A stretch of 49,968 bases of DNA from Sulfuricella sp. GTDB taxonomy: Bacteria; Pseudomonadota; Gammaproteobacteria; Burkholderiales; Sulfuricellaceae. Below are positions 26,423 through 45,599 of the stretch, in pieces. Made by a program: the position numbers and the translations under genes. Positions within the stretch are counted from its first letter, which is position 1, and every line of letters begins with the position of its first letter. The notes below the pieces were generated by a model, which did not search any database, was not told the DNA's origin, and was given only the letters and a program-made list of their open reading frames with translations. The stretch lies in contig JAQTMN010000013.1 of assembly GCA_028714315.1 (NCBI GenBank), forward strand, positions 1 to 49,968, in the 5' to 3' direction.

Positions 26423-28114
26423 TTACCTGCCGGAGGCCGCCGCCCAATAAGCGCGGTGCAGTTCGACGCTGGCTTCGCGCGGCACCGTCACCTCGATCAG
26501 GTCGGGCCCGGCGTGCGCCAGCGCCTGTGCGAGGGCCGCCGCGAACGCCTGCGCCGTATCCACGCGGTGGAAAGCCAGCCCGTACAACCCGGCCGCCTGT
26601 TCGAAATCGAGGCCGGCGGGGGTCAGCCACAAACGCTCGAAATTCTCCAGCCCGGCCTGCGGCAGGTAGCCGAAAATGGCGCCGCCGCCGTTGTTCAGCA
26701 CCACCAGCGTGACGTCCAGCCCGCGCGCCAGCGCCAGCCCGCCCAGATCGTGGCACAGCGCCAGATCACCGAGCAGGCCGACGACGGTCCTGCCGGCGGC
26801 CGCCAGGCCCAACAGCGTGGAGACATTGCCGTCGATGCCGCTCGCGCCCCGGTTGGCCGCTATGCGGAGCGGTTTTTCGCCGCCGCCGGAAAAGCTGTCG
26901 AGATCGCGGATCGGCATTGAATTGCCGCTGAACAGGATGGCGTCGGCGGGCAGGCGCTCCACCAGGGCGCGCACGATGCCGCATTCGACCGGCTGCGCCA
27001 TTTCCGCCAACCGTTGCGCGGCGAGCTCCTCCTGTTCGAGGAAATCCGCCAGCCAGCCGGCCGGCGCGGGCAGCGGTTTTTCTTCCGCCAACGCGCGACA
27101 TGCGGCCGCCGCATCGGCGCGCAGCAAATCGGTGGTCAGGTGCAGCGGATCGGGCCAACGGCCGTGCGCTTCGACCAGAATGTGGCGGGCTTCGCCTTGC
27201 GCCGTCAGATATTGCTGCATGACCTTGGAAACCGGCGGCGCGCCGAAACGCAGCACCCACGCCGGGCGATGGCCGGCGCTGAAATTTTCGCGGCGCAGGA
27301 AGGCATCGTAGCGGGTCAGAACACGGCGGCGCGCGTGCCCTCCGAAGCGCAGCCCGGACAGCGGATCGGCCAGCACCGGGCAGTCCAGCACCTGCGCCAG
27401 CCGTGCCACGGCGACGGGAAAATCGTCGGGGTAATCCGCGCCGCCGCAGACTATCAGGCCGGGCCGGCCGGACAATTCGGCGGCGAGACGGGCGGCGTCC
27501 TCCGGGCACGGAGCCATGACCGGATAAGCCACGGCCGCCGCCGCAGAAAACGGAAAATCGATCATGGCTCGCGGCACCAGCGGCTCGCGCAGCGGCACGT
27601 TCAGATGCACCGGCCCGGCCAGTGGCCAGCGGCATTTATCGACGGCCTGCGTGGCCCGCAGCGCGACATGGCGCAGGGCGGCCACGCCGTCCTCGGCAGC
27701 ACCCAGATCGAAGAAGAAACGCACCTGTTCGCCGAACAACCGGGCCTGATCCACCGTCTGGTTGGCGCCGCACTCACGCAGCTCGGGCGGGCGGTCGGCG
27801 GACAGCAAGATCAGGGGAACCGCGCCGTGGTTGGCCTCGATCACCGCCGGGAACCAGTTGGCCGGCGCGCTGCCTGAGGTTCCGATCACCGCCACCGGAC
27901 GATTTTCCGCCTTGGCGAGGCCGAGCGCGAAGAAGGCGGCACTGCGCTCGTCCAGCACCACCCAGGTGCGCAGCGCGGGGTGGCGATCGCACGCCAGCGC
28001 CAAAGGTGTGGAGCGCGATCCCGGCGAAATCACCGCGTGGCCGACCCCGGCGGAAGCCAGCCCGTCGATCAGGGTCAGCGCCCAGCGCAGGTTGACGGCG
28101 GCGGTGTCGGTCAT
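26423..28114 (-). CDS. menD: Menaquinone biosynthesis protein MenD (SEPHCHC synthase)
   Basis: A 563-residue thiamine-diphosphate enzyme joining isochorismate and 2-oxoglutarate in menaquinone synthesis. The N-terminal half has the ERSAAFFALGLAK region with the activating Glu. The C-terminal half holds the cofactor motif GDLALCHDLGG ... NNGGGAIF and the MenD-typical NRGASGIDGN. It overlaps menF by 4 bases (ATGA) and is the last gene of menG-menE-menF-menD. Identification is secure. Confidence 0.95.
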   Translation of the reverse strand: MTDTAAVNLRWALTLIDGLASAGVGHAVISPGSRSTPLALACDRHPALRTWVVLDERSAAFFALGLAKAENRPVAVIGTSGSAPANWFPAVIEANHGAVPLILLSADRPPELRECGANQTVDQARLFGEQVRFFFDLGAAEDGVAALRHVALRATQAVDKCRWPLAGPVHLNVPLREPLVPRAMIDFPFSAAAAVAYPVMAPCPEDAARLAAELSGRPGLIVCGGADYPDDFPVAVARLAQVLDCPVLADPLSGLRFGGHARRRVLTRYDAFLRRENFSAGHRPAWVLRFGAPPVSKVMQQYLTAQGEARHILVEAHGRWPDPLHLTTDLLRADAAAACRALAEEKPLPAPAGWLADFLEQEELAAQRLAEMAQPVECGIVRALVERLPADAILFSGNSMPIRDLDSFSGGGEKPLRIAANRGASGIDGNVSTLLGLAAAGRTVVGLLGDLALCHDLGGLALARGLDVTLVVLNNGGGAIFGYLPQAGLENFERLWLTPAGLDFEQAAGLYGLAFHRVDTAQAFAAALAQALAHAGPDLIEVTVPREASVELHRAYWAAASGR

Positions 28115-29478
28115 GAATTTTCCAGCGCCTTCCGCATGGCGTTCAGTTTGGCTTCGGTCTCGGCGAGTTCCGTTTCCGGATCGGAACCGGCGACGATGCC
28201 CGCGCCGGCCGACAGTTCCGCCTCGTTCCCCGCAAGCCAGGCGCAGCGCAGCGCCACGGCGAAATCACCATCGCCGTCCAGCCCGAGCCAGCCGGTGGCG
28301 CCGCTATACCAGGCCGGCCGGGCCTCGCCGTGATCCGCCAGCCATTGCTGGGCGGGGCGCACCGGGTAGCCGCCCATCGCCGGGGTGGGGTGCAGGCGCT
28401 CGACCAGGCTCAAGAGCGTGGTGCCCGGCTTGACGTCCCCTTTGACCACGCTCCGCAGGTGGCGCAGATCCTGGAGTTCGAGCACGGCGGGACGGGCCGG
28501 GATTTGCAGCAGACGGCAGGCCGGCTCGAGCGCATGGACAATGGCATTGACCACCAGGCGATGCTCGCGCCGGGTCTTGTCGTCATCGAGGTCGCCCGCC
28601 GAAACTCCACCCCACGCCGTACCGGCCAGCGCCTCGCTCACCGCCTGACCGCCGCGAAGCGACACCAGCCGCTCCGGCGTCGCGCCGAGAAACGCGCCCC
28701 GGCCCGCTTCGGCGTGGGAAAACTGGAAACACTCCGGATAGCGTGCCGCCAGCGCCGCCATCACGGCGGCCGGCACGAACGGACGGTCGCCGCGTAGGCG
28801 CACGCGGCGCGACAGCACCAGTTTGTCGAGCACCCCGGCGCGGATGTCTTCGATGGCCCGTTGCGCCAGATCCAGCCAGGCCTCGTCCGGCGGGTAGATA
28901 CCGACCCGGTCGAGGGATCGGCCGGCAGAGCTGGAAGGGATTTCTCCGGCAAAAGCGGCCAGCGCCCGCCGCCAGGCATCCAGCCAGACCGCCAGGACCT
29001 TGTCCGGCGCGCCGTCCCGGCCGCAGCTGAAAGTCGCGGTACAGATCCCGTCGCGCTGCTGCAGCAGCAACAGCGGCACGGTCAGGCGCGCATTGGGCAA
29101 GCTCTCGCCGCGCCGATCCCGATCGAAGGCAAACCCGGCCAGCGCTGCCGGCTGGGTCCCGGCGCCGTCCGCGTCCACCGCCTCCCAATGCCGACAATAT
29201 TCGGCAAAAGCGGCGTCCATCGCGCGGAAGCGCCCCTCCCCCTGGGTCTCGACGTTGGCCGCGCGGCCCAGGCCGAGCAGGAACAAGCCTTCGGCCGGAT
29301 TCGCCCAATAGCTGTGTTCGGCCAGGTGGTGCGGCAGTCCGCCAAAGGCCAGCTCGGGCAGGGCCACGGTCAGGCTCAGCAAGCCTTTGCCGCGTCCGCC
29401 GCCGTGGCGGCGCAGCAACTCCGCCAGGCGCGTTTCGAGCGCCGGCGGGGTTGGATATACGTTGGCGTTATGGCTCAT
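28111..29478 (-). CDS. menF: Isochorismate synthase MenF
   Basis: A 455-residue chorismate-binding enzyme of the anthranilate synthase component I fold, making isochorismate. Typical motifs are KLVLSRRVRL, FLGATPERLVS, LAGTAWGG, LRSVVKGDV, HPTPAMGGYP and the C-terminal AGAGIVAGSDPETELAETEAKL. It overlaps menE by 11 bases and menD by 4. MenF rather than a siderophore EntC is favoured by the neighbouring menD and menE. Confidence 0.93.
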   Translation of the reverse strand: MSHNANVYPTPPALETRLAELLRRHGGGRGKGLLSLTVALPELAFGGLPHHLAEHSYWANPAEGLFLLGLGRAANVETQGEGRFRAMDAAFAEYCRHWEAVDADGAGTQPAALAGFAFDRDRRGESLPNARLTVPLLLLQQRDGICTATFSCGRDGAPDKVLAVWLDAWRRALAAFAGEIPSSSAGRSLDRVGIYPPDEAWLDLAQRAIEDIRAGVLDKLVLSRRVRLRGDRPFVPAAVMAALAARYPECFQFSHAEAGRGAFLGATPERLVSLRGGQAVSEALAGTAWGGVSAGDLDDDKTRREHRLVVNAIVHALEPACRLLQIPARPAVLELQDLRHLRSVVKGDVKPGTTLLSLVERLHPTPAMGGYPVRPAQQWLADHGEARPAWYSGATGWLGLDGDGDFAVALRCAWLAGNEAELSAGAGIVAGSDPETELAETEAKLNAMRKALENS

Positions 29479-30796
29479 CGTTGGTCAATTCCTGCGCCAT
29501 TTGTCTCAGTTTGGCGCGCTCCAGCTTGCCCAGCGCATTGCGCGGCAGCACGGATACGTGCCGCAGCACACGCGGACGCATCGCGCCGGCGAGGTGTTCG
29601 CGGCACCATGCTTCCAGTCTCTCCGGCGCGGCATCGCCCGCGATCAGCGCCACCAGCCGGTCGCCCCAAATTTCGTCGGGCAGCGCGGTCACTGCCGCGT
29701 CGGCCACGCCGGGGCAGTTCAGCAATTGCGCCTCGACCTCGGCCGGATGCACGTTGACACCGCCGCTTACCAGCATGTCGTCGTGCCGCCCCAGCACGTG
29801 AAGCCTGCCGCCGGCGTCGATTTTTCCCATGTCCCCGGTGGTCAGCCAGCCGTCGGTCAAGCCCCGGCCGAGTTCGCCGTCGGCGTTGGCGTAGCCTGCC
29901 ATCACCGCCGCGCCGCGCACCTGGATGATACCTGCTTGGCCGGCGACTTCGCCATTGTCGTCAACGAACCGGATGTCGAAACCCGGCAGCGGCGCGCCGA
30001 CGCAACCCGGCTGCCAGTCTTCCAGGACGGGAAACAGAGTCGCCAGCTGCGAGGCGGTTTCGCTCATGCCGTAGGAAACGCACAGCGGCCAGCCGGCGGC
30101 GCGGGCGCGCCGGGCCAAAGCCGCCGACAACGCGCCGCCTCCCACCAGGGCATATTTGAGCGCAATGGGCGGCGATGCGCCATGAGCAATATCAAGCAGG
30201 CGCGCCAGCATCGCCGGCACCAGCGAGATATGCGTGACGCGCCGGGCTTCGATATCGTCCCACACCCGCCGCGCATCGAAGCCCTCGTGCAGCAGCATCG
30301 CCGCGCCCGCCCCGGCGCAGCGGTAGAGAATCGCCAAGCCGCCGATATGGTAAAGCGGCAGGCAGTTCAGCCAAACGTCGCCCGACTTCAGCGGCAAAAC
30401 GGCTTGCGAGGCGGCGACCGCGGCGGCCAGATTGGCGCCGTTCAGCATCACCGCCTTGGGCTCGCCTTGCGTGCCGCTGGTGGCAATCAGCAATTCGATT
30501 CCGGCCGGCGGCGTGGCGGATACTTGCCGCAATGCCGCACGGCGGGCGGCGGACAGCGCCGGGCCAAGCGGCAGCAGGGGCCGTCCGAGCAGGGAAGCGG
30601 CGTGAGCGGCCAGCGCCAGTTCCGCCGCCGAACCGGTTTGCGGCACCAGCAAGGTTCCCGGCTCCAATCCTCGCGCCAGCGCTTGTGCGCAGCCGAGCAA
30701 TTGGCGGTAGCTCAGCGTGCCGTCCGCCGTGATCAGTGCCGCCGCATCGGGATATCCGGCCGCCGCCCGGCTGGCCCAGGTCGCCAGCAGATTCAA
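29468..30796 (-). CDS. menE: o-Succinylbenzoate-CoA ligase MenE
   Basis: A 442-residue AMP-forming acyl-CoA ligase. Motifs: P-loop-like IATSGTQGEPKAVML, YGMSETASQ, TGDMGKIDAGGRLHVLGR and the C-terminal lysine in RNALGKLERAKL. It begins with TTG, overlapping the menG stop as TTGA, which signals coupled translation. The men context fixes the substrate as o-succinylbenzoate. At about 440 residues it is a compact family member. Confidence 0.92.
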   Translation of the reverse strand: MNLLATWASRAAAGYPDAAALITADGTLSYRQLLGCAQALARGLEPGTLLVPQTGSAAELALAAHAASLLGRPLLPLGPALSAARRAALRQVSATPPAGIELLIATSGTQGEPKAVMLNGANLAAAVAASQAVLPLKSGDVWLNCLPLYHIGGLAILYRCAGAGAAMLLHEGFDARRVWDDIEARRVTHISLVPAMLARLLDIAHGASPPIALKYALVGGGALSAALARRARAAGWPLCVSYGMSETASQLATLFPVLEDWQPGCVGAPLPGFDIRFVDDNGEVAGQAGIIQVRGAAVMAGYANADGELGRGLTDGWLTTGDMGKIDAGGRLHVLGRHDDMLVSGGVNVHPAEVEAQLLNCPGVADAAVTALPDEIWGDRLVALIAGDAAPERLEAWCREHLAGAMRPRVLRHVSVLPRNALGKLERAKLRQMAQELTNDEP

Positions 30797-31515
30797 GATA
30801 ATTTGGTTGCGCTATGCAGGCAGGCGATGCCGAAAGTCAGGTTGCGGTAGCGGACGTCGGCGAATCCGGCCTGCTCCAGGGCCTGCTTGAACGCTTCCTG
30901 ATTGGGAAAGCGGCGGATCGATTCGACCAGGTAGGCATACGCCTCCGGCTCGCGCGCGATCCACGCGCCCAGGCGCGGAATCACGGCAAAGGAAAACAGG
31001 TCGTAAAACGGCCGAATCGGGCGCCAGGGGCGGGAAAATTCCAGGCAGAAGAAACGGCCGCCCGGCTTGAGCACGCGCAGCACTTCGCGCAGCGCGTCAT
31101 CCAGGCGCGTGACGTTGCGGATGCCGAAGGCGATGGTCACGGTGTCCACCGAGGCGGACGCCAGCGGAATGCCCTCGCCGCTGCCGGCCAGCCAGGAAAC
31201 GTGGCGCATGCCGCGTTCGCGGCCGACCCCCATCATCGCCAGGCTGGGATCGCACACCAGGACGCGCCGGTCCGCATCGGCCAGCAAGCGGGCAACATCG
31301 CCGGTGCCGCCCGCCAGATCGACGATCACTTGTCCGGGTAGGGGATCAGCGGCACGGGCCAGGGTACGCTTCCACAACCGGTGGATGCCGAAGCTCATGG
31401 CGTCGTTCATCAGGTCGTAGCGCCGGGCGACGCCGGCGAATACCCGGCGAATGCGGCGCCGGCGCTCGTCCTGGTCTACATCCTGATAGCCGAAGGTGTG
31501 GGAAAGGTCGGACAT
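30793..31515 (-). CDS. menG: Demethylmenaquinone/ubiquinone C-methyltransferase
   Basis: A 240-residue SAM-dependent methyltransferase of the UbiE/MenG family. The SAM site VDLAGGTGDVARLLAD, the family motif FGIRNV, and the signature YDLMNDAMSFGIHRLWK are present. It methylates demethylmenaquinone and, in ubiquinone makers, also the ubiquinone ring (so ubiE is an equally valid name). It heads menG-menE-menF-menD and is 77 bases after nosY. The 17-bp hairpin at 31522-31572 ends 6 bases before its ATG and no clear ribosome site is seen, so translation may be controlled or reduced. Confidence 0.93.
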   Translation of the reverse strand: MSDLSHTFGYQDVDQDERRRRIRRVFAGVARRYDLMNDAMSFGIHRLWKRTLARAADPLPGQVIVDLAGGTGDVARLLADADRRVLVCDPSLAMMGVGRERGMRHVSWLAGSGEGIPLASASVDTVTIAFGIRNVTRLDDALREVLRVLKPGGRFFCLEFSRPWRPIRPFYDLFSFAVIPRLGAWIAREPEAYAYLVESIRRFPNQEAFKQALEQAGFADVRYRNLTFGIACLHSATKLS

Positions 31516-31521
31516 GTTCTT

Positions 31522-31572
31522 AGCTGGTAGCTAGTAGCGAGTGCCGGTTTGTTTGGCTACAAGCTACCAGCT
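31522..31572. repeat. Hairpin in the nosY-menG spacer
   Basis: Arms AGCTGGTAGCTAGTAGC (31522-31538) and GCTACAAGCTACCAGCT (31556-31572) pair at 16 of 17 positions with a 17-base loop. There is no T tract. It sits directly in front of the menG start codon on the minus-strand transcript. Confidence 0.7.
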
Positions 31573-31592
31573 ACAAGCCACAAGCTCTACTG

Positions 31593-32420
31593 TCACGGCA
31601 AATCGCCGCGGCGGAACAGGAGATAGCCGCCACCGGCCGCGATGGTGCCCAAAACCACAGGGTAAACCAGCGCATAGACCTTGAACAGGGGGCCGCCGAA
31701 ATAGTCGAAAATCACGTAGGCCGCCGGGCCGATCACTACCAGCTGCGGGTCGAACAGCATCAGGGCGGCGGTGCGGAACACCTGCAGAGGATTGGCCAGG
31801 GCCAGCGCGACTGCCACTTCCGGCGCGACATGCCCCTGGATCATGATGCCGAGCAGGATCAGGTCGAGGAACAGCAGCATGGTCAGCCAGACCAGGAACG
31901 CCGCGCCCTGGGCGACGTCGATCGAGCGCGCCATGGTGGAGATCAGCATGCCGATGCCGAGAAAGCACCAGGATATCGAAGCCAGCAGGCCGGTGTAGTA
32001 CAGGAACATCGACCACGGCACCTCGACGTCCTTGACCATCGCCCAGCCGGCGGCGGCCGCCATCGCCGCGAACACCGGCAGGAACACCACCAGGTAGCGG
32101 CCGACGATCTTGCCCCAGAACCAGGCCCCAAGGGAGACCGGCAGGGACAGCAGGTATTCGAACACGCCGGCTTCGCGGTCGCCCGCCACCGAGCGCACGG
32201 TGGTGATCAGTACGAAAATCGGCAGGATCGCCATCGACAGCTGGATATAGGTGACCAGCAGGCGCGACAGCCCGATGAAGCCGAGCACGCGCGATTCGGT
32301 CAGGCCGAAGGCGAACAGCAGCGCCACGATGCCGCCGAACACCAGGGTGTAGATCATGAACCAGCGCGCACGCAGGGATTCCACAATGTCGAGTTTAGCG
32401 GTAAGCCAGAGATGTTTCAT
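31593..32420 (-). CDS. nosY: Nitrous oxide reductase ABC permease NosY
   Basis: A 275-residue ABC-2 type permease with six membrane segments (for example ALLFAFGL, LLVTYIQLSMAILPIFVLI, LGIGMLISTMA, LTMLLFLDLILLGIMI). Conserved segments VAGDREAGVFEYLLSLPVSLGAWFWGK and ANPLQVFRTAALMLFD match NosY. With NosF it forms the ABC transporter that, with NosD and NosL, supplies the CuZ centre of NosZ. It is the last nos gene before menG. Confidence 0.93.
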   Translation of the reverse strand: MKHLWLTAKLDIVESLRARWFMIYTLVFGGIVALLFAFGLTESRVLGFIGLSRLLVTYIQLSMAILPIFVLITTVRSVAGDREAGVFEYLLSLPVSLGAWFWGKIVGRYLVVFLPVFAAMAAAAGWAMVKDVEVPWSMFLYYTGLLASISWCFLGIGMLISTMARSIDVAQGAAFLVWLTMLLFLDLILLGIMIQGHVAPEVAVALALANPLQVFRTAALMLFDPQLVVIGPAAYVIFDYFGGPLFKVYALVYPVVLGTIAAGGGYLLFRRGDLP

Positions 32421-32452: not shown

Positions 32453-32878
32453 CTACTTGTCCTTGGCCAGCAGCCGCCTGCTGGCCTCGTCGAACCCGAT
32501 GCTGCCCGGCAGCGCGTCTGCCGCGGCGCCGAATCCATATGCCATCGGCGTGGTCTTGCCGGCGACGTAATGAGCGGCGCGGGCATCCAGCCACTTGCCG
32601 CTGCGATAGTCGGCCACCCAGATTTCCGTGGCGGCATCGTTGCCCCAGGGCTGATCCTTGAGCCAGGTGACGGCGCAGCCGAGGTCGTCGAACTTGAATA
32701 CCTGCTTTTTCGGCCCGCCGCGCACCTCGACCGTATAGTGCCGGTCGCTCAGGGCCATGCTGCAGCGCACGCATGTGTCCCGGTCCCACTTGACCTCGAC
32801 CGGACCGGTGTCGGGCTGCCGCGAACAGGCGGCGAAAATCAGCACGGTCACCACCAGCAAAAACAGATTCTTCCGCAT
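32453..32878 (-). CDS. nosL: Copper-binding lipoprotein NosL
   Basis: A 141-residue lipoprotein with lipobox FAAC (residues 15-18) and the NosL copper motif CVRCSM in the mature part (WDRDTCVRCSMALSDR), continuing with FDDLGC. NosL brings Cu(I) to NosD/NosZ in the periplasm. It starts inside the nosF stop (TAATG) and precedes nosY, forming nosF-nosL-nosY. A second NosL-like gene lies at 47635-48108. The long upstream frame in the same phase is a shadow of nosF. Confidence 0.92.
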   Translation of the reverse strand: MRKNLFLLVVTVLIFAACSRQPDTGPVEVKWDRDTCVRCSMALSDRHYTVEVRGGPKKQVFKFDDLGCAVTWLKDQPWGNDAATEIWVADYRSGKWLDARAAHYVAGKTTPMAYGFGAAADALPGSIGFDEASRRLLAKDK

Positions 32879-33747
32879 TATTGGCCCCCGCCCCGCTCGA
32901 TTTCCTCCATCGACATCCGGGCTAGCAGCCCGACGTAGCGCGACAGCATGCCGAGAAAGCGCAGCCGGTCCGGCCCGGCGATCAGGCCTTCCCACTCGGT
33001 GCCGTTGCCGGTGTCGCGGAAGCTCCAGCCCGCCAGCGCCTTGGCGATGGCTTCTTCCGGCCGGCGCAGGGTCAGGCGGCAGGCCAGCTTGCCGGACAGC
33101 GACGCGTCGTCGGCGACGCGATCGTCCAGCACCACTTTGCCGCGGTCCATTTCCAGCACGCGGTTGACCAGCGGAGCCACTTCGTCGAGGCGGTGGCTGG
33201 AAATCAGCATGGTGGTGTTGGCAAGCCGCTCCGCCAGCAGCTCGAAAAAAATGTGGCGCGCGTCGGGATCGAGGTTGGCGGCGGGCTCGTCCATCACCAG
33301 AACGTTGGTGTCGCGGCCCATCGCGATGGCGATCAGCAATTTCTGCTTCATGCCGCCGGACAATTTGACGAATGGCAGCCGGGCGATTTTCCCGAGATCG
33401 AGGCCAAGGCGCTGGGCGATGTCTTCCATACGCTTCACCTCGCTGTTGCACAGCGAGGCCGCAAAGCCGACCAGCTGGCCGACCGGCATTTTCAGGGGCG
33501 GCGGCAGCTGCGGTACGAAGCCGATCCGGGCGAGTACCTCGGTGCGCTCGCGCCGCGGCGTAAGCCCGTTCACCGCGACCTCGCCGTCATAGACGTATTC
33601 GCCGAGCAGGCAGCGGATCAGGGTGGTCTTGCCGGCGCCGTTGGAGCCGACCAGCGCGATCCGCTCGCCAAGCCCGATCTTCAGGTCGATGTCGTCGAGA
33701 ACCCGGTTGCGCTTGAAGGTCTTGGATACGTGGTTGAATTGGATCAT
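32878..33747 (-). CDS. nosF: Nitrous oxide reductase ABC ATP-binding protein NosF
   Basis: A 289-residue ABC ATPase with Walker A GSNGAGKTT, signature LSGGMKQK, Walker B VLVMDEP and switch His (SSHRLDE). It partners NosY in copper-centre assembly of NosZ. It follows nosH across an 88-base spacer that is filled by a large hairpin. The ATG at 33747 is clean but has no strong ribosome site. Confidence 0.95.
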   Translation of the reverse strand: MIQFNHVSKTFKRNRVLDDIDLKIGLGERIALVGSNGAGKTTLIRCLLGEYVYDGEVAVNGLTPRRERTEVLARIGFVPQLPPPLKMPVGQLVGFAASLCNSEVKRMEDIAQRLGLDLGKIARLPFVKLSGGMKQKLLIAIAMGRDTNVLVMDEPAANLDPDARHIFFELLAERLANTTMLISSHRLDEVAPLVNRVLEMDRGKVVLDDRVADDASLSGKLACRLTLRRPEEAIAKALAGWSFRDTGNGTEWEGLIAGPDRLRFLGMLSRYVGLLARMSMEEIERGGGQ

Positions 33748-33760: not shown

Positions 33761-33836
33761 GAGGAGTGAGGAGTCAGGAGTGAGGAGAAAAACCGCGCCC
33801 CACTCTTTCCTCCTCACTCCTGACTCCTCACTCCTC
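33761..33836. repeat. 27-bp perfect inverted repeat in the nosH-nosF spacer
   Basis: Arms at 33761-33787 and 33810-33836 are perfectly complementary for 27 bases and consist of iterated GAGTGAGGAG-type units, with a 22-base loop. The right arm reaches the nosH stop codon. A related heptamer repeat GGTGAGG occurs in menA at 44729-44756. It may act as a transcript-processing or attenuation structure. Confidence 0.85.
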
Positions 33837-36998: not shown

Positions 36999-37072
36999 AA
37001 GCTCAACTTTAACATTGGATGAAAATCCCCACCCCCGCCGAATTGGAGTGGGGTTTAGCGAAAACGATCCCG

Positions 37073-38227: not shown

Positions 38228-38953
38228 TTATTTTTTCTTGCCGCCCTTTTGCGCGCACAGCGTGCCCGGCATGGTCAGGGTGGACATGTACGTCACCACG
38301 GCATCCAGGTCGTGGTCGCTGTACTTCTTCACGATCTTGACCATGTCCGGGTTGGCGTTACGGCGCTTACCGTCGCGAATCTCGGTGACCTGGCGCATCA
38401 TATACTTGTAGTGCTGGCCGGCGAGCACGGGGTAGAACTTGTCCTTGTCGCCCGCGCCGGTGGCGCCGTGGCAGCTGGTGCATTCCTTTTTGTACAGCTC
38501 CTCGCCGTGCTTGAGAATGGCCGGATCTTTCGAGCCCATGCCGTGGTCGCGCGGAATGCACAAGGTCTGGATGTAGGTGGCGACGTCGGCCAGTTCCTGC
38601 GCATCGCTCAGGGTCACGGCAAACGGATACATGGTCGGATTGTCGCGCAGGCCGCCGCGGATGTCGGCGATCTGCTTGATGATCACGGTGGCATGCTGTC
38701 CGGCCAGTTGCGGGAAGGTGCCGTCGGGACGGCCGGAACCGCTGGGCAAATGGCAGGCGCCGCACACTTCATAGGCTTCCTTGCCGCGCTTGGCGTCGCC
38801 CTTCAATTTCAGCGCTTCGATCTTTTCGCCTTCCTGCGCATTCCAGACATAACCTTTCTCCTCGATGCCGCCTTTATGGGGAGCGGGCGCGCCGGCATAA
38901 ACCACCGCGGGTGCCAACGCCAGGGACAGTGCTGCTGCTAAAACTTTTTTCAT
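38228..38953 (-). CDS. nosC2: Diheme cytochrome c, NosC2-like
   Basis: A 241-residue periplasmic cytochrome with a signal peptide (1-20) and heme motifs CGACH (64-68) and CTSCH (158-162), in a c4-like tandem arrangement (LAGQHATVII, LAGQHYKYMM). It is placed between nosC1 and nosB. In clade II clusters nosC1 and nosC2 encode small cytochromes that carry electrons from NosGH to NosZ, and the call follows that order. The ATG at 38953 has a GAGAGGAAT site and a DNR box lies about 108 bases upstream. Confidence 0.82.
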   Translation of the reverse strand: MKKVLAAALSLALAPAVVYAGAPAPHKGGIEEKGYVWNAQEGEKIEALKLKGDAKRGKEAYEVCGACHLPSGSGRPDGTFPQLAGQHATVIIKQIADIRGGLRDNPTMYPFAVTLSDAQELADVATYIQTLCIPRDHGMGSKDPAILKHGEELYKKECTSCHGATGAGDKDKFYPVLAGQHYKYMMRQVTEIRDGKRRNANPDMVKIVKKYSDHDLDAVVTYMSTLTMPGTLCAQKGGKKK

Positions 38954-39086: not shown

Positions 39087-39404
39087 TCAAGGCTTCATCT
39101 TGGACACGTACTCGGCCAAATCCTTGATTTCCGCGTCGCTCACGATCACCATCACGCCCTTCATGGCGGCGCTGTTGCCGTTGGCGCGCGCGCCGCTCTT
39201 GATGTCAGCCATCTGCTTCGCGATGTACTTGGCGTTCTGCCCGGCGATTTTCGGGTAATCCGGCATCAGCGGCGTTTTGCCGTCCTTACCGTGACAGGCG
39301 GTGCAGGTTTTTTCCACGAACAGCTTGGCGCCGTCGCCGGCCAAAGCGGCGCTGCTGGCCAGAGTCACGGTTGCCGCGGCAACCAGGATAGCTATTGATT
39401 TCAT
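39087..39404 (-). CDS. nosC1: Monoheme cytochrome c, NosC1-like
   Basis: A 105-residue periplasmic monoheme cytochrome with a signal (1-22) and heme motif CTACH (34-38); a Met in the MKGVM segment is the likely sixth ligand. It lies immediately downstream of nosZ with its own DNR box, as expected for the electron carrier NosC1. I chose the ATG at 39404 rather than the one at 39410 because the AGGAG site is 7 bases before it. Confidence 0.82.
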   Translation of the reverse strand: MKSIAILVAAATVTLASSAALAGDGAKLFVEKTCTACHGKDGKTPLMPDYPKIAGQNAKYIAKQMADIKSGARANGNSAAMKGVMVIVSDAEIKDLAEYVSKMKP

Positions 39405-39474
39405 CGTCATTCTCCTAACAATAATTGCGTCGCATATCAACCGATTGATCGCAATCGCATTTTATATGAACGTA

Positions 39475-39594: not shown

Positions 39595-41892
39595 TTACTT
39601 GCCAACCTTGTGAGCGCCATGCTGCTCCAGGTAAGTCTTGGCGCGCAGACCGATGTCGGCGGCTTTGACCTGGTACTGCCACACTTGCTCGGCCCACAGG
39701 GTGGCTTGCTGCCAATCCTGCTTCTTGGCCGCTTCTTCGTGCTTGGCCTTGGCTTCCTTCATGCGGCCCAACTGGTCGGTCGCATCGTTCACCAGTTCCA
39801 CGACATCCGGGAAGTCCTTGTAGTTGACACTGGTGATGTAACCCACCACGCTGTCGATCACGGCCTGGGTATCGGCAATCTTCTTCACCTGCTTGTCGTA
39901 GTCGGCCTTGGTGTAGTCGGCCTTGGCCGCCGCCACCTTGACTTCCTTGTAGCCCTTCGGCTTGACCAGCAGATAGCCTTGCATCTCCAGGTGCAACGCG
40001 GAGCAGAACTCGGTGCAGTAGTACGGATACACGCCTTCCTTATCCGCCTTGAACTTCACCGTGACGGTCTTGCCCGGTTCGACCGAGGCGTGCACGTTGT
40101 AGGTGCTCACCGTAAAGCCGTGGGTTTCGTCCTCCGCCCGTTCCAGGTTGGTCAGGTGGATCGTCACTTCGTCGCCCACCGTCGCCTCGATGGTTTCCGG
40201 GGTGATGTGCGAGCGGATCAGCGTACCGAACACTTCCACCTTGCCGGGCTTCTTGGCGGTATGCTCTTCGCCGGCATGCACCGCGCCGGAGCTGGGCTTG
40301 TCGGTGCGGCTGTTGGTGCCGACCTTGTAGCGCACGCCCGGTTTCAGCGTCTTGGCATCGATGGCAACCATGTAGTGCGGCTCGCCCAAGGGCAGCGGCA
40401 TGTCATACAGCAGCTGCATCTTGTCGTTGCTGATGTCGATCAACTGGTGGTTCTGCGGATGCAGCGGACCCACCGGGTTGAAGCGGTCGATCGCCAGCTT
40501 GTTCAGCGCCACCAGGTAACGGCCCTTCGGATCGACGGAATCGCCTTCCATGGTGTTCAAGTGGCCGATGTTGTAGTGGATCGAGAGCTTGTCCAGCACC
40601 TTGCCCTCGCAGTAGTCCCACTTGGCGACTTGCGAATCCACGTAGAGCGAGGTGTAAGCCACGCACTTCTTGGCGTCGTACTGGGTATGCAATGGCCCCA
40701 AACCCAGTTGCACCTGACGCTCCAACGCATCCTTCATGCCGATCACGGGAATGCCGTAGGGATCCTTGCCTTCGAACTTGCCGGCCTTGATCGCGGCCTG
40801 GATCTTCTCGAAGCTGAATACCGACACGTGGGTATCCAGCTTGCCGGCCACCACCATGAACTTGCCGTCGGGCGTCACGTCCACGCCGTGCGGGCTCTTC
40901 GGCTCCGGCACCAGGAACAGGATGCCTTCCTTGATCGACACTTCCATCGGCAGCACGTCATGGCCGTTGATCTTCTTGGCCTTGCCCTGCGCAACCAGCT
41001 CGGCCGCCTTCTTCCAGTTGATCACGTGCATGTAGTCGGTGTCTTTCGCCGAGCAGCCGGCCTCATAGGGAGGACGACCCTTCTCGATACCGCCGACATA
41101 ACGCTCGGTGCAGAAGGAGTTGGTGAACGACCAGCCGTCGGATGGGCCCTTGCCCGCATCGGACAAGTCCTGGCTATAGGGCGGCAGTTCGAGCGAGAAG
41201 GATTTCTTCACGTCGATCTTGCCTTCCTTGCGGTCGAATTTCCAGTAGGTCACGCCGCCGCGGTATTCTTCGTTGAAGCGCTCGAGCGGGACGAACTTCT
41301 TGTTCGCCAACGGGGAAGCATACTGCGCGGCTTCGATGACGTAGTCGGTGTTGGGGGTAACGAAAGCGCCGCCGTGCTCCGACTTGTAAATCGGGTTGAC
41401 CACGATCTGCTTGGTTTCGAAATCGCGCAGGTCGATCACCGCCATACGCGGGTTGGCCTTGTCGTTGATGAACAGGAACTGGCCGTCGTACTTGCCGTTG
41501 GTTTCGGAAATCGCCGGATGGTGCGTATCGCCCCAGGTGATATCCTTGCCGTCGATGCGGCCGCCCTTCAGCACTTCCTTCGACTCTTCGTCGAAGCCGT
41601 AGCCCTGCCAGGGTTCCGGGGTGAACACGCCGATGTATTTCAGGATGCGCATGGACGGGATGCCGTACACGATCACCTGGCCGCTCTGGCCGCCGGAGCT
41701 GAAGGCGATGAAATCATCGCGCTTGCCGGTCGGAACGTAAGTTTTGGATGCGGCCAACAAATCCTGCTGCGACAGGCCGCGACGTTTCATTACATCTTGC
41801 AGCGATTCCGCCGACCAGGCACTCGACACCGCCGCGGCACCAATCCCCGCTGCGGTAATCATCATGACTGTCTGCTTACCGAAAAGCTTCAT
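39595..41892 (-). CDS. nosZ: Nitrous oxide reductase NosZ, clade II
   Basis: A 765-residue periplasmic enzyme reducing N2O to N2. The signal (1-29, ending SSAWSA) is Sec-type without a twin arginine, a clade II trait. The CuZ histidines are present in GDTHHP (His124, His125), SEHGGAF, SPHGVD, PLHTQY, NIGHLN and GEPHYM, seven in total. The CuA site CTEFCSALHLEM (about 626-637) lies in the cupredoxin domain. After CuA comes a 128-residue Lys/Ala-rich, probably helical extension without a heme motif, where some clade II enzymes have a cytochrome c. The ATG at 41892 has a GGGAGG site. Two perfect DNR boxes are upstream. Confidence 0.97.
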   Translation of the reverse strand: MKLFGKQTVMMITAAGIGAAAVSSAWSAESLQDVMKRRGLSQQDLLAASKTYVPTGKRDDFIAFSSGGQSGQVIVYGIPSMRILKYIGVFTPEPWQGYGFDEESKEVLKGGRIDGKDITWGDTHHPAISETNGKYDGQFLFINDKANPRMAVIDLRDFETKQIVVNPIYKSEHGGAFVTPNTDYVIEAAQYASPLANKKFVPLERFNEEYRGGVTYWKFDRKEGKIDVKKSFSLELPPYSQDLSDAGKGPSDGWSFTNSFCTERYVGGIEKGRPPYEAGCSAKDTDYMHVINWKKAAELVAQGKAKKINGHDVLPMEVSIKEGILFLVPEPKSPHGVDVTPDGKFMVVAGKLDTHVSVFSFEKIQAAIKAGKFEGKDPYGIPVIGMKDALERQVQLGLGPLHTQYDAKKCVAYTSLYVDSQVAKWDYCEGKVLDKLSIHYNIGHLNTMEGDSVDPKGRYLVALNKLAIDRFNPVGPLHPQNHQLIDISNDKMQLLYDMPLPLGEPHYMVAIDAKTLKPGVRYKVGTNSRTDKPSSGAVHAGEEHTAKKPGKVEVFGTLIRSHITPETIEATVGDEVTIHLTNLERAEDETHGFTVSTYNVHASVEPGKTVTVKFKADKEGVYPYYCTEFCSALHLEMQGYLLVKPKGYKEVKVAAAKADYTKADYDKQVKKIADTQAVIDSVVGYITSVNYKDFPDVVELVNDATDQLGRMKEAKAKHEEAAKKQDWQQATLWAEQVWQYQVKAADIGLRAKTYLEQHGAHKVGK

Positions 41893-42016: not shown

Positions 42017-42030
42017 TTGATGTATATCAA
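42017..42030. promoter_or_regulatory. FNR/DNR box upstream of nosZ (proximal)
   Basis: TTGAT-GTAT-ATCAA matches the consensus exactly. It is centred 131 bases before the nosZ start. Confidence 0.9.
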
Positions 42031-42142
42031 GCCTTGAAATCCGCCGGCACCCTCGCCACGCGCCATTAACGCCTTAAATATAGTAGGGGTTTTAGCGGCG
42101 CCAAGGTGTGCGCATTCGCGCGGACATGATACCTCAAGTTTG

Positions 42143-42156
42143 TTGATGCACATCAA
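42143..42156. promoter_or_regulatory. FNR/DNR box upstream of nosZ (distal)
   Basis: TTGAT-GCAC-ATCAA matches the consensus exactly. It is 126 bases further upstream and only 38 bases past the menC stop. Confidence 0.85.
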
Positions 42157-42194: not shown

Positions 42195-43244
42195 CTACCG
42201 GGCGGCGAAACCCAAACCCGCGCCCCGTCCGACCGTCAACATCCCGTCGGCCGGTTGCGGCGGCAAGCCGACATCGCCGGCGAGCCAGGACGATGTCGCC
42301 AGACCATGCGCCAGATCGTTCGCCACGGCCGCGGCCAGGTGCAGCGCGGCATAAACGCCGACGGCGCTGTCCACCGTCGTAGTCACGACGCATTCCATGC
42401 CCGCCTCCCGCGCCCGGTTTGCCAGCACCAGCGCCGGTCGCAGGCCGCCCAGCACCATCGGCTTCAGCACCAGGCGACGCACGGGCCGCAGCGCCAGCAA
42501 CGCCTCCGCGCCCAGCAGCGGCAGGATTTCGTCCGCCGCCAGGGGAAAAGCGACCGCGGCCTGCAACCGGGCCAACTCCGCCGCGCCGGGGGTGCGTAGC
42601 GGATCTTCCAGCGACTCCACCGGCAGGCCGCTCAAACCGCCGAGAAATCCGTTCGCCTCGGCCCAGGTCCAGGCCCGGTTCGCATCGAGGCGCAGGCCGA
42701 TACCAGCCGGCAGTTCGCCGGCCAACTCGCGCAGCAAGGCCAGTTCATGCCCGACCGGCGCAAGCCCCACCTTCAGCTTGAGCACGGAAAACCCCGCCGC
42801 CACGGCCGCCCGCGCGCGCAGCAACGACTCGCGGCCCAGCGCGCCGATCATGGCATTCACGTTGACGGAAAGGGAAGAAAGCGGATTGAGCCAGCGCGCG
42901 AGGCCAAGCCCGGCCCGCTGCGACAAGAGATCGAGCAAGGCGGTTTCCAGGCCGCAGCGAACCGCCGGCGCGGCAACCGCGATGCGCTCCAATGCATCCA
43001 GCGCGGCCTCCGGCGTCATGCCGTACAGGCTTGCGCCACACTCCGCCAGACGCGAAGCCGCGCACGCCCGGCTTTCGGTGCCAGCTTGCGGCAACGGGGC
43101 GCAATCGCCATGGCCGACCAGGCCGTCGCCGGTTTCCAGCCGGATCAGCCAGCCCTCGCGCGCGGCAAACCCGCCCCGTGCGCTGGCCCAGGGAACGGCC
43201 AGTGGCAAACGATAGGGCTGGCAGGAAAAGCCGGCGAGATACAC
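42195..43244 (-). CDS. menC: o-Succinylbenzoate synthase MenC
   Basis: A 349-residue enolase-superfamily enzyme. The catalytic Lys pair is in VLKLKVG, the metal ligands are in LRLDANRAW, VESLEDPL and LAADEIL, and the second acid/base Lys is in LVLKPMVLGG. The frame extends upstream as a shadow of tlpA; the GTG at 43244, 2 bases after the tlpA stop, gives the expected N-terminus (VYLAGFSCQPYRLPL). It is the last gene of menB-menA-tlpA-menC. The TSFW-type C-terminus and the men neighbours make OSBS far likelier than another enolase family. Confidence 0.9.
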   Translation of the reverse strand: MYLAGFSCQPYRLPLAVPWASARGGFAAREGWLIRLETGDGLVGHGDCAPLPQAGTESRACAASRLAECGASLYGMTPEAALDALERIAVAAPAVRCGLETALLDLLSQRAGLGLARWLNPLSSLSVNVNAMIGALGRESLLRARAAVAAGFSVLKLKVGLAPVGHELALLRELAGELPAGIGLRLDANRAWTWAEANGFLGGLSGLPVESLEDPLRTPGAAELARLQAAVAFPLAADEILPLLGAEALLALRPVRRLVLKPMVLGGLRPALVLANRAREAGMECVVTTTVDSAVGVYAALHLAAAVANDLAHGLATSSWLAGDVGLPPQPADGMLTVGRGAGLGFAAR

Positions 43245-43246
43245 TG

Positions 43247-43759
43247 CTACAGCGCGGGTTCGAGTATCTGCTGCAAGCGCTGCGGCGTCAGGATGCCGCG
43301 TTTCACGGCAAGGACATTGCCCTGCCGGTCGAGCACCACGGTGTAGGGCAGACCGGCGATCTTGTTGCCGAGCGCCTGGAGCAAGGCGATACCCTTTTCC
43401 TTGCCGGCCATCGCCACCGGGTAGGTGATGCCGTTGGCCTGGGCGAACTCGCGCACCAGATCGGCGTCGTCCTCCACCGCGGCGCCGACGAACGCCACGC
43501 CGCGCGGGCCGTATTTCTTGTAGGCGTCCTCCAGCGCAGGAATTTCCGTGCGGCAAGGCGTGCACCAGGTCGCCCAGAAATTCACCACCGCCACCTTGCC
43601 CTTCAGCCCGGCCAAGGCCAGCGGCTTGCCGTCTAGGCCGGCGAGGGTGGCGGTCAAAACCGGTTCGGCGGCGGGCAGCGCATCCGCCGCCGCCGGGGTG
43701 GAGAACAGCCCGAAAGTCAGCATCCAGGCGGCGAGGAAACACATCGATTTTGCACTCAT
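43247..43759 (-). CDS. tlpA: TlpA-like thiol-disulfide oxidoreductase
   Basis: A 170-residue thioredoxin-fold protein with a signal (about 1-25) and the active site WCTPC (Cys66, Cys69). It is the TlpA/ResA/CcmG type, which keeps thiols reduced in the periplasm, for example for cytochrome c or copper-site assembly. It is encoded between menA and menC and is separated from menC by 2 bases. The start ATG at 43759 has a TGAGG site. A role in maturing the nearby cytochromes or Cu sites is plausible but not shown. Confidence 0.82.
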   Translation of the reverse strand: MSAKSMCFLAAWMLTFGLFSTPAAADALPAAEPVLTATLAGLDGKPLALAGLKGKVAVVNFWATWCTPCRTEIPALEDAYKKYGPRGVAFVGAAVEDDADLVREFAQANGITYPVAMAGKEKGIALLQALGNKIAGLPYTVVLDRQGNVLAVKRGILTPQRLQQILEPAL

Positions 43760-43777
43760 CTTAAAAAACCTCATTTG

Positions 43778-43810
43778 AACCACGGAGATCACGGAGGCCA
43801 CGGAGCAAGG
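43778..43810. repeat. CACGGAG-type intergenic repeat
   Basis: Three CACGGAG units with 9-base spacing (CCACGGAG-ATCACGGAG-GCCACGGAG) lie in the 122-base gap between menA and tlpA. This type of repeat is common in betaproteobacterial intergenic DNA. Confidence 0.5.
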
Positions 43811-43841
43811 CAAAGCGTTTAGGGCAATATCGAGCAGTCAC

Positions 43842-43880: not shown

Positions 43881-43881
43881 C

Positions 43882-44763
43882 TCATAGCAATAGCCCCATG
43901 CTTAGCAATATCCCGAAACCCAGCTGCAGCTGCGCAGTCTGCGCCAAAATCCGGTTGAACGCCGGCCCCGGTGCTTCGCGCCAGAAGCGCCGGACCAGGT
44001 GCAGCGCCCAGGGCAAGGTCAGCACCGGCATCCATTGTCCGAGCAGCGGCAGCAGCAGGTACGGCACCAAAATCAGCAGCAGGTATTCGACCTTGCTGGC
44101 CGACCGGCCGATGCGCACGGCCAGGGTGTTTTTGCCGATCTTGCGGTCGTTGTCGAGATCGCGGGTATTGTTCACCACGATCACGGCGGCTGCGAGCAGG
44201 CCGACCATCGAGGCCGCCCAGAAAGGCGGCCAGCCGAGACGCAGCGTTTGCAGGTAATAGCTGCCCATCACCGCGCCCAGCCCGAAGAACAACCAGACGA
44301 ACAGCTCGCCCAGCCCGCTGTAGGCGATCGGCCGCGGCCCGCCGGTATAGCTCCAGCCGGCGGCAACGGAAGCCAGCCCGAGCAGCAGGATTGGCCAGCT
44401 GCCATGCCACACCAGGTAAATACCCAGCAGCACGGCCCCGCCGAAACAGGCGAACGCGCCGCGGCGCACGGCGGCGGGAGCCAGCCAGCCCGACGCGGTG
44501 GCGCGCGCGGGGCCGAGGCGCTCGGCGCCGTCCGCGCCGCGCTCGAAATCGCTCACGTCGTTGTGCAGGTTGGTGCCGACCTGGATCAGGATGGCCGCCG
44601 CCAGCGCCGCGAGGAGCGGCAGCCAGGCAATCGCGCCGGTCTCGGCAAAAGCTGCGCTGCTGCCGACCAGCACCGGCACGATGGAAACGGTCAGCGTCTT
44701 GGGGCGGATCGCCAGCCACCACACCAGAGGTGAGGGGTGAGGGGTGAGGGGTGAGGAATTCAT
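43882..44763 (-). CDS. menA: 1,4-Dihydroxy-2-naphthoate prenyltransferase MenA
   Basis: A 293-residue UbiA-type membrane prenyltransferase with about eight to nine segments. The prenyl-diphosphate binding motif is NLHNDVSDFERG, and the second Asp-rich motif is NNTRDLDNDRKIGK. It attaches the prenyl tail to give demethylmenaquinone. The N-terminal 13 residues come from four tandem 7-bp repeats (44729-44756), whose length of 28 bases is not a multiple of three, so a change in repeat number would shift the frame. The ATG at 44763 has no clear ribosome site; a GTG at 44724 after the repeats is an alternative start. Confidence 0.9.
   Translation of the reverse strand: MNSSPLTPHPSPLVWWLAIRPKTLTVSIVPVLVGSSAAFAETGAIAWLPLLAALAAAILIQVGTNLHNDVSDFERGADGAERLGPARATASGWLAPAAVRRGAFACFGGAVLLGIYLVWHGSWPILLLGLASVAAGWSYTGGPRPIAYSGLGELFVWLFFGLGAVMGSYYLQTLRLGWPPFWAASMVGLLAAAVIVVNNTRDLDNDRKIGKNTLAVRIGRSASKVEYLLLILVPYLLLPLLGQWMPVLTLPWALHLVRRFWREAPGPAFNRILAQTAQLQLGFGILLSMGLLL
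44729..44756. repeat. Four tandem GGTGAGG heptamers in the menA 5' end
   Basis: Four perfect copies of GGTGAGG, read as residues 3-12 of MenA. They are similar in sequence to the GAGTGAGGAG units of the nosH-nosF hairpin. Confidence 0.8.
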
Positions 44764-44783
44764 GTGCTGCGCAAATCGCTCTC

Positions 44784-45599
44784 TTACGGCCGGCGCGGGA
44801 ACTTGCCGAAATCGGGGGGACGCTTCTCCAGCCAGGCGTTGCGGCCTTCCTGTCCCTCCTCGGTCATGTAGAACAGGGCGGTGGCGTTGCCCGCGAGCTC
44901 CTGGATGCCGGCCAGGCCGTCGGTGTCGGCGTTGAAGGCGGCCTTCAGCATCCTCAGCGCGGTGGGCGAGAGTTGCAGCATTTCACGGCACCATTTGACG
45001 GTTTCGTTTTCCAGCTCGGCCAGCGGCACCACGGCGTTGACCAGCCCCATCGCCAGTGCCTCCTGCGCATCGTACTGGCGGCAAAGGAACCAGATTTCCT
45101 TGGCTTTCTTGATGCCCACCGTGCGCGCCAGGAGGCCCGCGCCGAAGCCGGCGTCGAAGCTGCCGACGCGCGGCCCGGTCTGGCCGAAGCGGGCGTTGTC
45201 GGCGGCGACGGTCAGGTCGCACACCAGGTGCAGCACGTGGCCGCCGCCGATGGCGTAGCCCGCCACCATCGCCACCACCGGCTTGGGCAGGCCGCGGATC
45301 TGGCGCTGCAAATCCAGCACGTTGAGGTAGGGCACGCCTTGGTCGTCGTGATAGCCGCCGTCGTCGCCCCGCACTTTCTGGTCGCCGCCGGAACAGAACG
45401 CCTGGTCGCCGGCGCCGGTCAGGATGACGGCCCCCACGGCGGGATCCCGGTGCGCCAGATGAAACGCGTCCATCAGCTCGCGCACGGTTTGCGGGCGGAA
45501 AGCATTGCGCACGGCGGGACGATTGATCGCGATCCGGGCGATGCCCTCGGCCTGGTGGTAGAGAATATCTTCAAACTTGCCGGCAGGTTTCCAGTCCAT
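44784..45599 (-). CDS. menB: 1,4-Dihydroxy-2-naphthoyl-CoA synthase MenB
   Basis: A 271-residue crotonase-family enzyme that closes the naphthoquinone ring. The MenB signature [21 protein letters not shown], the loop [11 protein letters not shown] and the C-terminal [20 protein letters not shown] are present. I chose the ATG at 45599 (MDWKPAG), which is the usual MenB N-terminus; the longer frame above has no motif. It is the first gene of menB-menA-tlpA-menC. Confidence 0.93.

Follow-up and report, generated by a model that had tools for sequence, protein, structure and literature searches.

A conserved gene module of menaquinone and clade II nos genes in Sulfuricella, and the quinol that may feed its nitrous oxide reduction

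Introduction

By consuming N2O, clade II reducers act as a sink for a greenhouse gas. Where such bacteria have ubiquinone in addition, the quinone feeding NosGH matters for their energy yield and limiting factors. Which quinone this is was asked for a Sulfuricella contig, of which 49,968 nucleotides were analysed (the window). Here the nos genes for N2O destruction sit among the genes for the synthesis of menaquinone, i.e. vitamin K2. An earlier note on this DNA had proposed that quinol production and N2O respiration form one module and that N2O reduction may depend on menaquinol made on site. A literature search found no paper on nos-men linkage in betaproteobacteria, which is weak evidence of novelty, as subscription papers were mostly outside its scope.

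Results

Gene content of the men-nos cluster

Genes were called from NCBIfam profile scores against curated cut-offs, plus Pfam. All genes described by the earlier note were found as open frames on the minus strand: a clade II cluster nosZ-C1-C2-B-D-G-H-F-L-Y, with menB-menA-tlpA-menC upstream of nosZ and menG-menE-menF-menD downstream of nosY. The first flank starts with menB for 1,4-dihydroxy-2-naphthoyl-CoA synthase (44784..45599, ATG at 45599), which reached 434 bits with TIGR01929 (cut-off 343) and 491 bits with NF005637, both above cut-off. The DHNA polyprenyltransferase gene menA (43882..44763) also scored above cut-off, with 182 bits for TIGR00751 (cut-off 102) and 299 bits for NF004751, and two aspartate-rich stretches, which we take to be the motifs of this enzyme, were conserved in the alignment of its product. 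A tlpA/resA-like thiol-disulfide oxidoreductase gene (43247..43813) matched Redoxin and AhpC-TSA above cut-off and was ResA-like below the NCBIfam cut-off; a homologue stands after nosY in many loci of the Rhodocyclaceae type. The gene menC for o-succinylbenzoate synthase (42195..43262) obtained 128.8 bits with TIGR01927, and its position was matched in relatives.

On the other flank, the UbiE-family methyltransferase gene menG (30793..31515) scored 249 bits with TIGR01934 for the MenG/UbiE subfamily (cut-off 158), and menE for o-succinylbenzoate-CoA ligase (29468..30796) 281 bits with TIGR01923. The isochorismate synthase gene menF (28111..29478) and the SEPHCHC synthase gene menD (26423..28114) reached 264 bits with TIGR00543 (cut-off 225) and 451 bits with TIGR00173 (cut-off 244), respectively. 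MenC and MenE had these as best-named matches yet remained below the equivalog cut-offs of 130.55 (MenC just below) and 330. The classical set of MenF, MenD, MenC, MenE, MenB, MenA and MenG/UbiE was thus identified in the cluster with all seven members. Within the men-nos cluster of the window, to which this search was confined, no MenH and no DHNA-CoA thioesterase were recognised; a 4HBT thioesterase gene was present near nosZ/menC in six sampled sister-genus genomes and adjoined menC in four of them.

The product of nosZ (39595..41892) is a clade II, Sec-dependent nitrous oxide reductase, as it scored 909 bits with TIGR04246 (cut-off 625) versus 387 bits with TIGR04244. It is followed by genes for a small c-type cytochrome, nosC1 (39087..39440; PF00034, 45.6 bits, above cut-off), and a second c-type cytochrome, nosC2 (38228..38953; PF00034, 75.9 bits, matched in two stretches). 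The product of nosB (37073..38047) had no match in NCBIfam or Pfam, and the gene was conserved in the loci of relatives. For nosD (35652..37046, start codon uncertain) 372 bits were obtained with TIGR04247 (cut-off 300). The genes nosF for an ABC ATPase (32878..33747; PF00005, 84 bits), nosL (32453..32881; PF05573, 26.3 bits, narrowly above the cut-off of 24, no NCBIfam match) and nosY for an ABC-2 permease (31593..32420; PF12679, 58.6 bits) complete the cluster. The nos names of C1, C2, F, Y and B are putative and follow the gene order.

Between these genes, nosG (34807..35655) encodes an iron-sulfur protein with Fer4 domains and NapG as best match (129 bits, below cut-off), and nosH (33836..34819) a NapH-like membrane protein with 238 bits for TIGR02163 (NapH/MauN, cut-off 213). 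Both CX3CP motifs of NosH were invariant in 11 of 11 aligned sequences. The cluster had been called NosR-less, and indeed the search of the nos cluster gave NosG and NosH and no NosR-sized frame, NosH itself reaching only 26 bits for NosR.

Transcription signals and neighbouring genes

The region between menC and nosZ contained two exact palindromes (42017..42156; at 42143-42156 and 42017-42030), which we take to be FNR/DNR-type boxes. Another such palindrome was located between menD and nirS (26253..26266). Six matches were present in the window versus 0.14 expected, and at least one box occurred upstream of nosZ in all nine relatives scanned. The nosY-menG gap (31516..31592, minus strand) measured 77 bases, as had been noted earlier, and about 2-118 bases in nine relatives. 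It contains a strong hairpin with no T run; positions 31500-31600 folded with -38.2 kcal/mol (z -4.05). The genes menG-E-F-D may be read from the nos promoter; nosZ has FNR-like boxes of its own, and the strong hairpin within the gap counts against such read-through.

Adjoining menD, outside the module proper, is nirS for a cytochrome cd1 type nitrite reductase (24490..26166, minus strand; PF02239 cytochrome D1, 498 bits). Beyond it, Pfam revealed NapC/NirT-family genes at 23660-24223 and 21142-21780.

Conservation of the module within the family

The family holding the module is probably the Sulfuricellaceae, which are sulfur-oxidising bacteria. Clade II nosZ and menD occurred together in 20 of 22 sampled family genomes and were both absent from two; neither was ever found without the other. 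In four of the 20 (G001, G006, G013, G020) nosZ was a partial match below cut-off, assigned to clade II by score per position and in G020 also by 84% identity. One of the two others (G005) had no clade II nosZ and no menD, while G009 carried a nosZ of clade I, and none of menD, menB and menA reached the cut-off in it.

As judged from reading gene maps, men genes flanked nos on both sides and on the same strand in 10 of the 20 men-bearing genomes, this one included. In six they were seen on one visible side, in two (G014, G017) they were located away from nos, and two were not judgeable. Since this order is conserved in relatives, the adjacency is not due to chance. The concatenated men and nos trees were largely congruent within the family and had the main pairs in common, so the pair looks co-inherited. 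Percent identities had raised the idea that nos of G014 and G017 had been swapped for an unrelated copy, but the concatenated nos tree placed both beside their genus. The claim of one module was therefore borne out as far as co-inheritance goes: the trees, and the 20 genomes with both parts and two with neither, make men and nos look like a single module that this family inherited together.

Co-occurrence across the order and in a second family

In the order survey menD was present in 22 of 29 genomes with clade II nosZ versus 4 of 370 others, nearly all genomes with these traits coming from two families. In the second family, of Rhodocyclaceae type, the figures were 18 of 41 versus 9 of 109 (Fisher p 2e-6), and by genus 12 of 23 versus 5 of 39 (p 0.001, genera counted by hand); the counts come from related genomes, which are not independent samples. 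Six of the 18 genomes with both genes had menD within 30 kb of nosZ, and their gene orders differed from that of Sulfuricella.

Menaquinone could also supply the whole anaerobic or denitrification chain, with NapC/NirT-type tetrahaem donors or sulfur metabolism, so that nos would be one client and the linkage a denitrification island. We regard this as possible, though on the unlikely side. It agrees with nirS and the two NapC/NirT-family genes just past menD, with the position of nirS beyond menD in some relatives, and with menA lying within about 1.5 kb of nirS, not nos, in five Rhodocyclaceae-type genomes (G450, G536, G494, G474, G287). In addition, G014 and G017 retained men although nos is elsewhere, and nine of 27 Rhodocyclaceae-type menD genomes had no clade II nosZ over cut-off (one of them, G432, had a clade II-like partial match containing a stop). 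For Sulfuricella, PMC6295460 reports homologues of CymA close to napGH. Such a general role fits poorly with the 22 family genomes, in which menD and clade II nosZ never separate, and with the eight genomes described below that keep only menG-menA, six of them near nos.

nos clusters without menaquinone genes

Clade II nosZ was found without menD in 23 of the 41 Rhodocyclaceae-type genomes, and 14 of these also had no MenA over cut-off. NosG and NosH were encoded in 12 of these 14; of the exceptions, the region of G545 was not fetched and the contig of G520 ends in nosG. Among 28 nos regions retrieved from menD-less clade II genomes, 26 likewise encoded both and the other two were interrupted by a contig end, which gives no support to a substitution of NosR for NosGH in these genomes. 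In G257, G268 and G374 the homologues were distant (30-47% identical), and a few open frames in the menD-less regions were longer than usual. G044, G107 and G213 had kept NosG and NosH and had no menD, menB or MqnC over cut-off; in G044 nosZ, C2, G, H, F and Y were 86-93% identical to Sulfuricella, and C1, B, D and L 67-75%.

The futalosine route as a hidden source of menaquinone was not supported, as MqnC was over cut-off in none of the 399 order genomes (G000 included) and none of the 150 Rhodocyclaceae-type genomes. The matches that the MqnC profile gave at about 210-350 bits lay mostly in long frames and seem to belong to a different radical SAM family. A divergent MenA-like gene beside nos in G258, G416, G464, G468, G503 and G507 was not accepted as a true MenA: it stayed below cut-off, and genes with similar scores also occurred without clade II nosZ over cut-off, e.g. 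in G390, G424, G425 and G427.

The earlier reading was thus supported in part: men and nos go together in two families, but a dependence on menaquinol as a rule is partly contradicted by the NosGH of genomes that have no recognised route to menaquinone.

Genomes with menG and menA only

In eight genomes MenA was over cut-off, and menD, menB and MqnC were not; they had kept the menG-menA pair. An SBF-family transporter gene followed menA in all eight. With three of these SBF proteins as queries, tblastn gave no SBF gene next to menA in any of 22 relatives that carry menD, menB and menA, although distant SBF genes could be missed with so few queries. In three Azonexus loci (L134, L140, L141) SBF followed tlpA and no menA was seen, and in L174 menA was present and SBF not found, which weakens the case for an exclusive pairing of SBF with menA. 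G499 and G528, with MenA of another type, had no SBF gene in the fetched DNA, the contig of G528 ending just past menA. The position of the SBF gene in genomes without the early Men genes suggests that they import a naphthoate precursor.

Discussion

The conserved module probably links N2O reduction by the clade II enzyme to menaquinone from the classical Men pathway. UbiA was over cut-off in this genome and a second UbiE-family gene lies outside the cluster (at C33), so that the menG of the cluster is an extra copy; G005, without menD and clade II nosZ, has one UbiE-family copy. UbiA and the second UbiE suggest, on genomic grounds, that the host makes two quinones. We infer that menaquinone is made in these cells and that NosGH prefers menaquinol over ubiquinol. 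Menaquinol as the electron donor of NosGH is the best explanation of the gene data, which suggest it rather than prove it. NosH and NosG would oxidise membrane menaquinol, the electrons would pass via cytochromes C2/C1 and NosB to NosZ, and NosZ would reduce N2O. The menG of the cluster would act in menaquinone synthesis, and ubiquinone for other chains would be maintained by UbiA together with the other UbiE. With the nirS cluster and its NapC/NirT genes next door, the same pool may supply further denitrification steps. According to PMC3475470, NosGH resembles NapGH and forms a module that oxidises quinone, and NapH oxidises menaquinol. Counting against menaquinol as donor, PMC11539149 reports for a thermophilic N2O reducer that menaquinone-synthesis genes were little changed on N2O.

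That NosGH runs on ubiquinol here and the men genes are a neutral or historical neighbour is improbable: many genomes have NosGH and no recognised menaquinone pathway, the host has UbiA and a second UbiE, and parts of PMC6195509 describe E. coli NapGH as more specific for ubiquinol, but the linkage persists over the divergence of the family and recurs in other gene orders in the second one, and the co-occurrence survives at the genus level.

Coupling to menaquinone may extend further. Tentatively, NosGH-type N2O respiration in ubiquinone-bearing betaproteobacteria could rely on a low-potential naphthoquinone of its own, whose precursor is made on site, with men around nos, or imported as DHNA or a similar naphthoate via SBF, by genomes that have none of the early Men genes tested and carry SBF beside menA, mostly near nos. 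Among the importers would be genomes that seem to belong to Thauera linaloolentis and Pseudothauera nasutitermitis. If so, N2O removal by such bacteria would hinge on cross-feeding, with neighbours in the community supplying the vitamin K precursors. Natural comparisons are offered by genomes with men around nos, with both absent, with nos and no men, and with only menG-menA and the transporter.

Comparison with known systems

The clade II nos cluster of Wolinella succinogenes (NosZ, NosB, a NosG-C1-C2-H module and NosDFYL) is a like kind of set with no NosR, and NosH here is likewise NapH-like and carries two CX3CP motifs. Wolinella uses menaquinone. The Sulfuricella host differs in having ubiquinone genes as well, and in the classical men genes that flank nos on both sides. 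The membrane and iron-sulfur subunits of NapGH of periplasmic nitrate reductase are homologous to NosH and NosG, which are coupled here to NosZ; the quinone preference of NapGH is itself disputed, and parts of PMC6195509 also question the quinol dehydrogenase role of the epsilonproteobacterial proteins. With the classical Men operon the cluster shares menF, D, C, E, B, A and G; in Sulfuricella the set is split in two by nos and no menH was seen. Lactiplantibacillus plantarum, with an incomplete menaquinone pathway and DHNA cross-feeding according to passages of PMC10746273, resembles the relatives with menG-menA and without menB and menD. These relatives differ from it in that they add an SBF-family gene after menA, mostly near nos.

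Arrangement of the men and nos genes

On the minus strand between positions 26423 and 45599 the coding order is menB, menA, tlpA, menC, then nosZ, C1, C2, B, D, G, H, F, L and Y, then menG, menE, menF and menD, as the earlier note had described. Its spacing of 77 bases between nosY and menG was found again, and menC and nosZ lie 302 bases apart. Scoring with NCBIfam upheld the assignment of NosZ to clade II; MenC and MenE scored below their equivalog cut-offs. Past menD follow a gene for a cytochrome cd1 (PF02239, 498 bits) and two genes of the NapC/NirT family. An ORF past the mcp gene (47455-48108, plus strand) had no NCBIfam match; we take it to be NosL-like in appearance. The source genome (G000; G handles denote genomes, L handles loci) comprises 2.92 Mb in 148 contigs and is 85% complete, the window being contig C13.

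The family is probably Sulfuricellaceae (Betaproteobacteria). Its 22 genomes were those returned by the search, and more members are possible, for example Sulfuriferula, which is placed there by NCBI. MenD exceeded the cut-off in G000 and in 19 of 21 relatives, in G010 as one frame in two pieces. Of these 20 genomes, 16 had a clade II nosZ above the cut-off and four (G001, G006, G013, G020) a partial match. G005 (98% complete) had neither menD nor clade II nosZ, while G009 (74% complete) contained a clade I nosZ (TIGR04244, 1005 bits) and gave no menD, menB or menA over cut-off in the profile search.

The men genes flanked nos on both sides in 10 of the 20 menD-bearing genomes (G000, G002, G004, G007, G008, G010, G011, G012, G016, G021) and occupied one visible side in six (G003, G006, G015, G018, G019, G020); men and nos were separate in G014 and G017, and the arrangement in G001 and G013 was not classifiable. 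Within the sequence fetched for G003, G018 and G019, no menC was present upstream of nosZ. In G014 a nosC2 homologue (L049, 13440-14171) stands alone between menC and menG and nosZ is 1.56 Mb distant, as would be expected had nos left the men locus; the gene is a likely remnant, and the frame submitted had no Pfam match.

In six sister-genus genomes (G012, G014, G016, G017, G018, G019) a 4HBT thioesterase gene (e.g. L050, 11752-12177) lay ahead of nosZ or in the menC-menG interval, adjoining menC in four. It is a possible candidate for the DHNA-CoA thioesterase.

Trees of concatenated proteins were calculated with FastTree for nos (24 genomes) and men (16 genomes). In this comparison, which the earlier note had proposed, the main pairs within the family were identical in both trees. 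G011 and the second-family genomes G040, G199 and G489 were placed discordantly, and a few nodes were poorly supported. The nos tree placed G044, from another family, next to the genus of the window; no menD, menB or MqnC over cut-off was detected in it by profile search.

Putative regulatory sites

Six exact FNR-like boxes (TTGAY-N4-RTCAA) occur in the window, versus 0.14 expected: two in the menC-nosZ gap, one each before C1, before C2 and between menD and nirS, and one at 11503-11516, far from nos. At least one box was present upstream of nosZ in all nine relatives scanned; none of the nine had one in the nosY-menG gap, and none was found before menB in the seven relatives with sequence there, in some just a few bases. 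This distribution suggests that nos likely has its own anaerobic promoter, that menB-A-tlpA-C is probably transcribed separately, and that menG-E-F-D may be read through from nos. The nosY-menG gap of the window contains a strong hairpin lacking a T run; in G012 and G018 this gap is about 2 bases.

Co-occurrence beyond the family

The linkage of nos and men extended further than the earlier note had claimed. The order survey covered 399 genomes, counting G000, with completeness of 80% or more; clade II nosZ was present in 29, menD in 26 and both in 22, these figures coming mainly from two families. In the second, Rhodocyclaceae-type family (150 genomes with completeness of 90% or more; related loci titled, e.g., Azospira, Dechloromonas, Thauera) the numbers were 41, 27 and 18, with neither in 100. 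The association was significant per genome (Fisher, p = 2e-6) and per genus (p = 0.001), the genus count being the sole phylogenetic correction. In six of the 18 genomes with both (G040, G086, G166, G199, G480, G489) menD was at most 30 kb from nosZ, in gene orders different from that of the window. The binomial chance of at least six such linkages is 3e-7, taking 60 kb in 3.6 Mb and treating genomes as independent. NosY plus at least 2.5 kb beyond was available in 54 of 80 named loci, and a men-like gene passed the thresholds in 19 of them; nine of the 19 are from the window's family, L190 is a divergent MenA-like case and L168 an upstream UbiE-type, so that independent cases are fewer.

Several further arrangements were observed. 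In G450, G536, G494, G474 and G287 (L201, L202, L206, L207, L113) menA stood apart from nos and no more than about 1.5 kb from a nirS homologue sharing 68-75% identity with the gene of the window. A second NosD-family gene followed tlpA or menA downstream of nosY in L060 (2222-3442; TIGR04247, 354 bits), L071, L075, L077, L078, L186 and L197. Two copies of clade II nosZ, separated by a few kb and mostly scoring equally, occurred in G040, G166, G199, G367, G426, G480 and G494, and the menD-bearing G432 contained a clade II-like nosZ fragment that includes an in-frame stop (C39, 362-1207). MenD matches in family f22 (G317, G344, G368) lay in open frames of more than 1000 aa, possibly fused Men proteins. 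G257 had MenB (461 bits) and MenA over cut-off and no menD at E 1e-55.

Genomes with menG and menA only

MenA was over cut-off in 27 of 41 second-family clade II genomes versus one of 15 genomes lacking clade II nosZ and menD, the 15 being the first listed of 100 and not random. The sole positive, G414, contains nosG-H-F-L-Y; its nosZ probably lies past the contig end. Eight genomes with MenA over cut-off (G414, G430, G498, G527, G531, G542, G543, G546) had no menD, menB or MqnC over cut-off, menD and menB being the early men genes covered. The loci retrieved for all eight include a homologue of menG. MenG-menA was close to nos in G414, G430, G531, G542 and G546 and about 15 kb off in G498; in G527 and G543 the gene pair and nos were on different contigs.

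Immediately after menA, all eight carried an SBF-family gene (PF01758). In the second family, 22 genomes that have menD and menB and whose menA region was available (G040, G086, G166, G199, G287, G489 and 16 others; menD genomes G461, G497, G524 and G537 were left out) showed no such gene beside menA. In the menD genome G462 neither menB nor MenA exceeded its cut-off. Among solved structures, bacterial homologues of the sodium/bile-acid transporter are similar to the SBF proteins (3zux, E 5e-24).

In a midpoint-rooted FastTree tree of 40 MenA sequences, those labelled late, for genomes with only the late men genes, and the nos-linked second-family ones formed one clade, together with G426 and G480 (not near nos), and Sulfuricellaceae MenA the other. 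Sequences labelled late were interspersed with full-pathway members (G414 with L170, G430 with G086), the label being provisional, as to menB and menD, for L149, L163 and L186. This placement suggests that the early men genes were lost repeatedly.

The boldest reading, and a tentative one, is that such relatives might draw on an outside DHNA-type precursor, with the SBF protein as putative importer. There is a precedent in a lactic acid bacterium with an incomplete menaquinone pathway, described in PMC10746273 as growing on outside DHNA.

Quinone donor of NosGH

UbiA is encoded elsewhere in G000 (TIGR01474, 298 bits; cut-off 275), as is a UbiE-family gene apart from the cluster, which suggests that the host produces two quinones. 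Because the men-less G005 retains a single UbiE-family gene, the cluster MenG is probably an additional copy.

Across the two surveys 29 clade II genomes had no menD; MenA was over cut-off in 12 and not in 17. Nos regions were compared in 28 (G545 left out), and NosG and NosH were present in 26, L064 and L068 ending at contig ends. This retention counts against a strict menaquinol dependence of NosGH systems. Dependence on menaquinol, which the earlier note had raised as a possibility for N2O reduction here, is partly contradicted as a general rule. Menaquinol is the best reading of the donor to NosGH, and we consider it rather probable. The main rival, a wider role of menaquinone in denitrification, appears less probable. 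NapGH of the periplasmic nitrate reductase is related to NosGH, and published opinions on its quinone conflict. Against the menaquinol reading, PMC6195509 reports E. coli NapGH as more specific for ubiquinol, and doubts a quinol dehydrogenase role for epsilonproteobacterial NapGH; in its favor, NapH is presented in PMC3475470 as oxidizing menaquinol.
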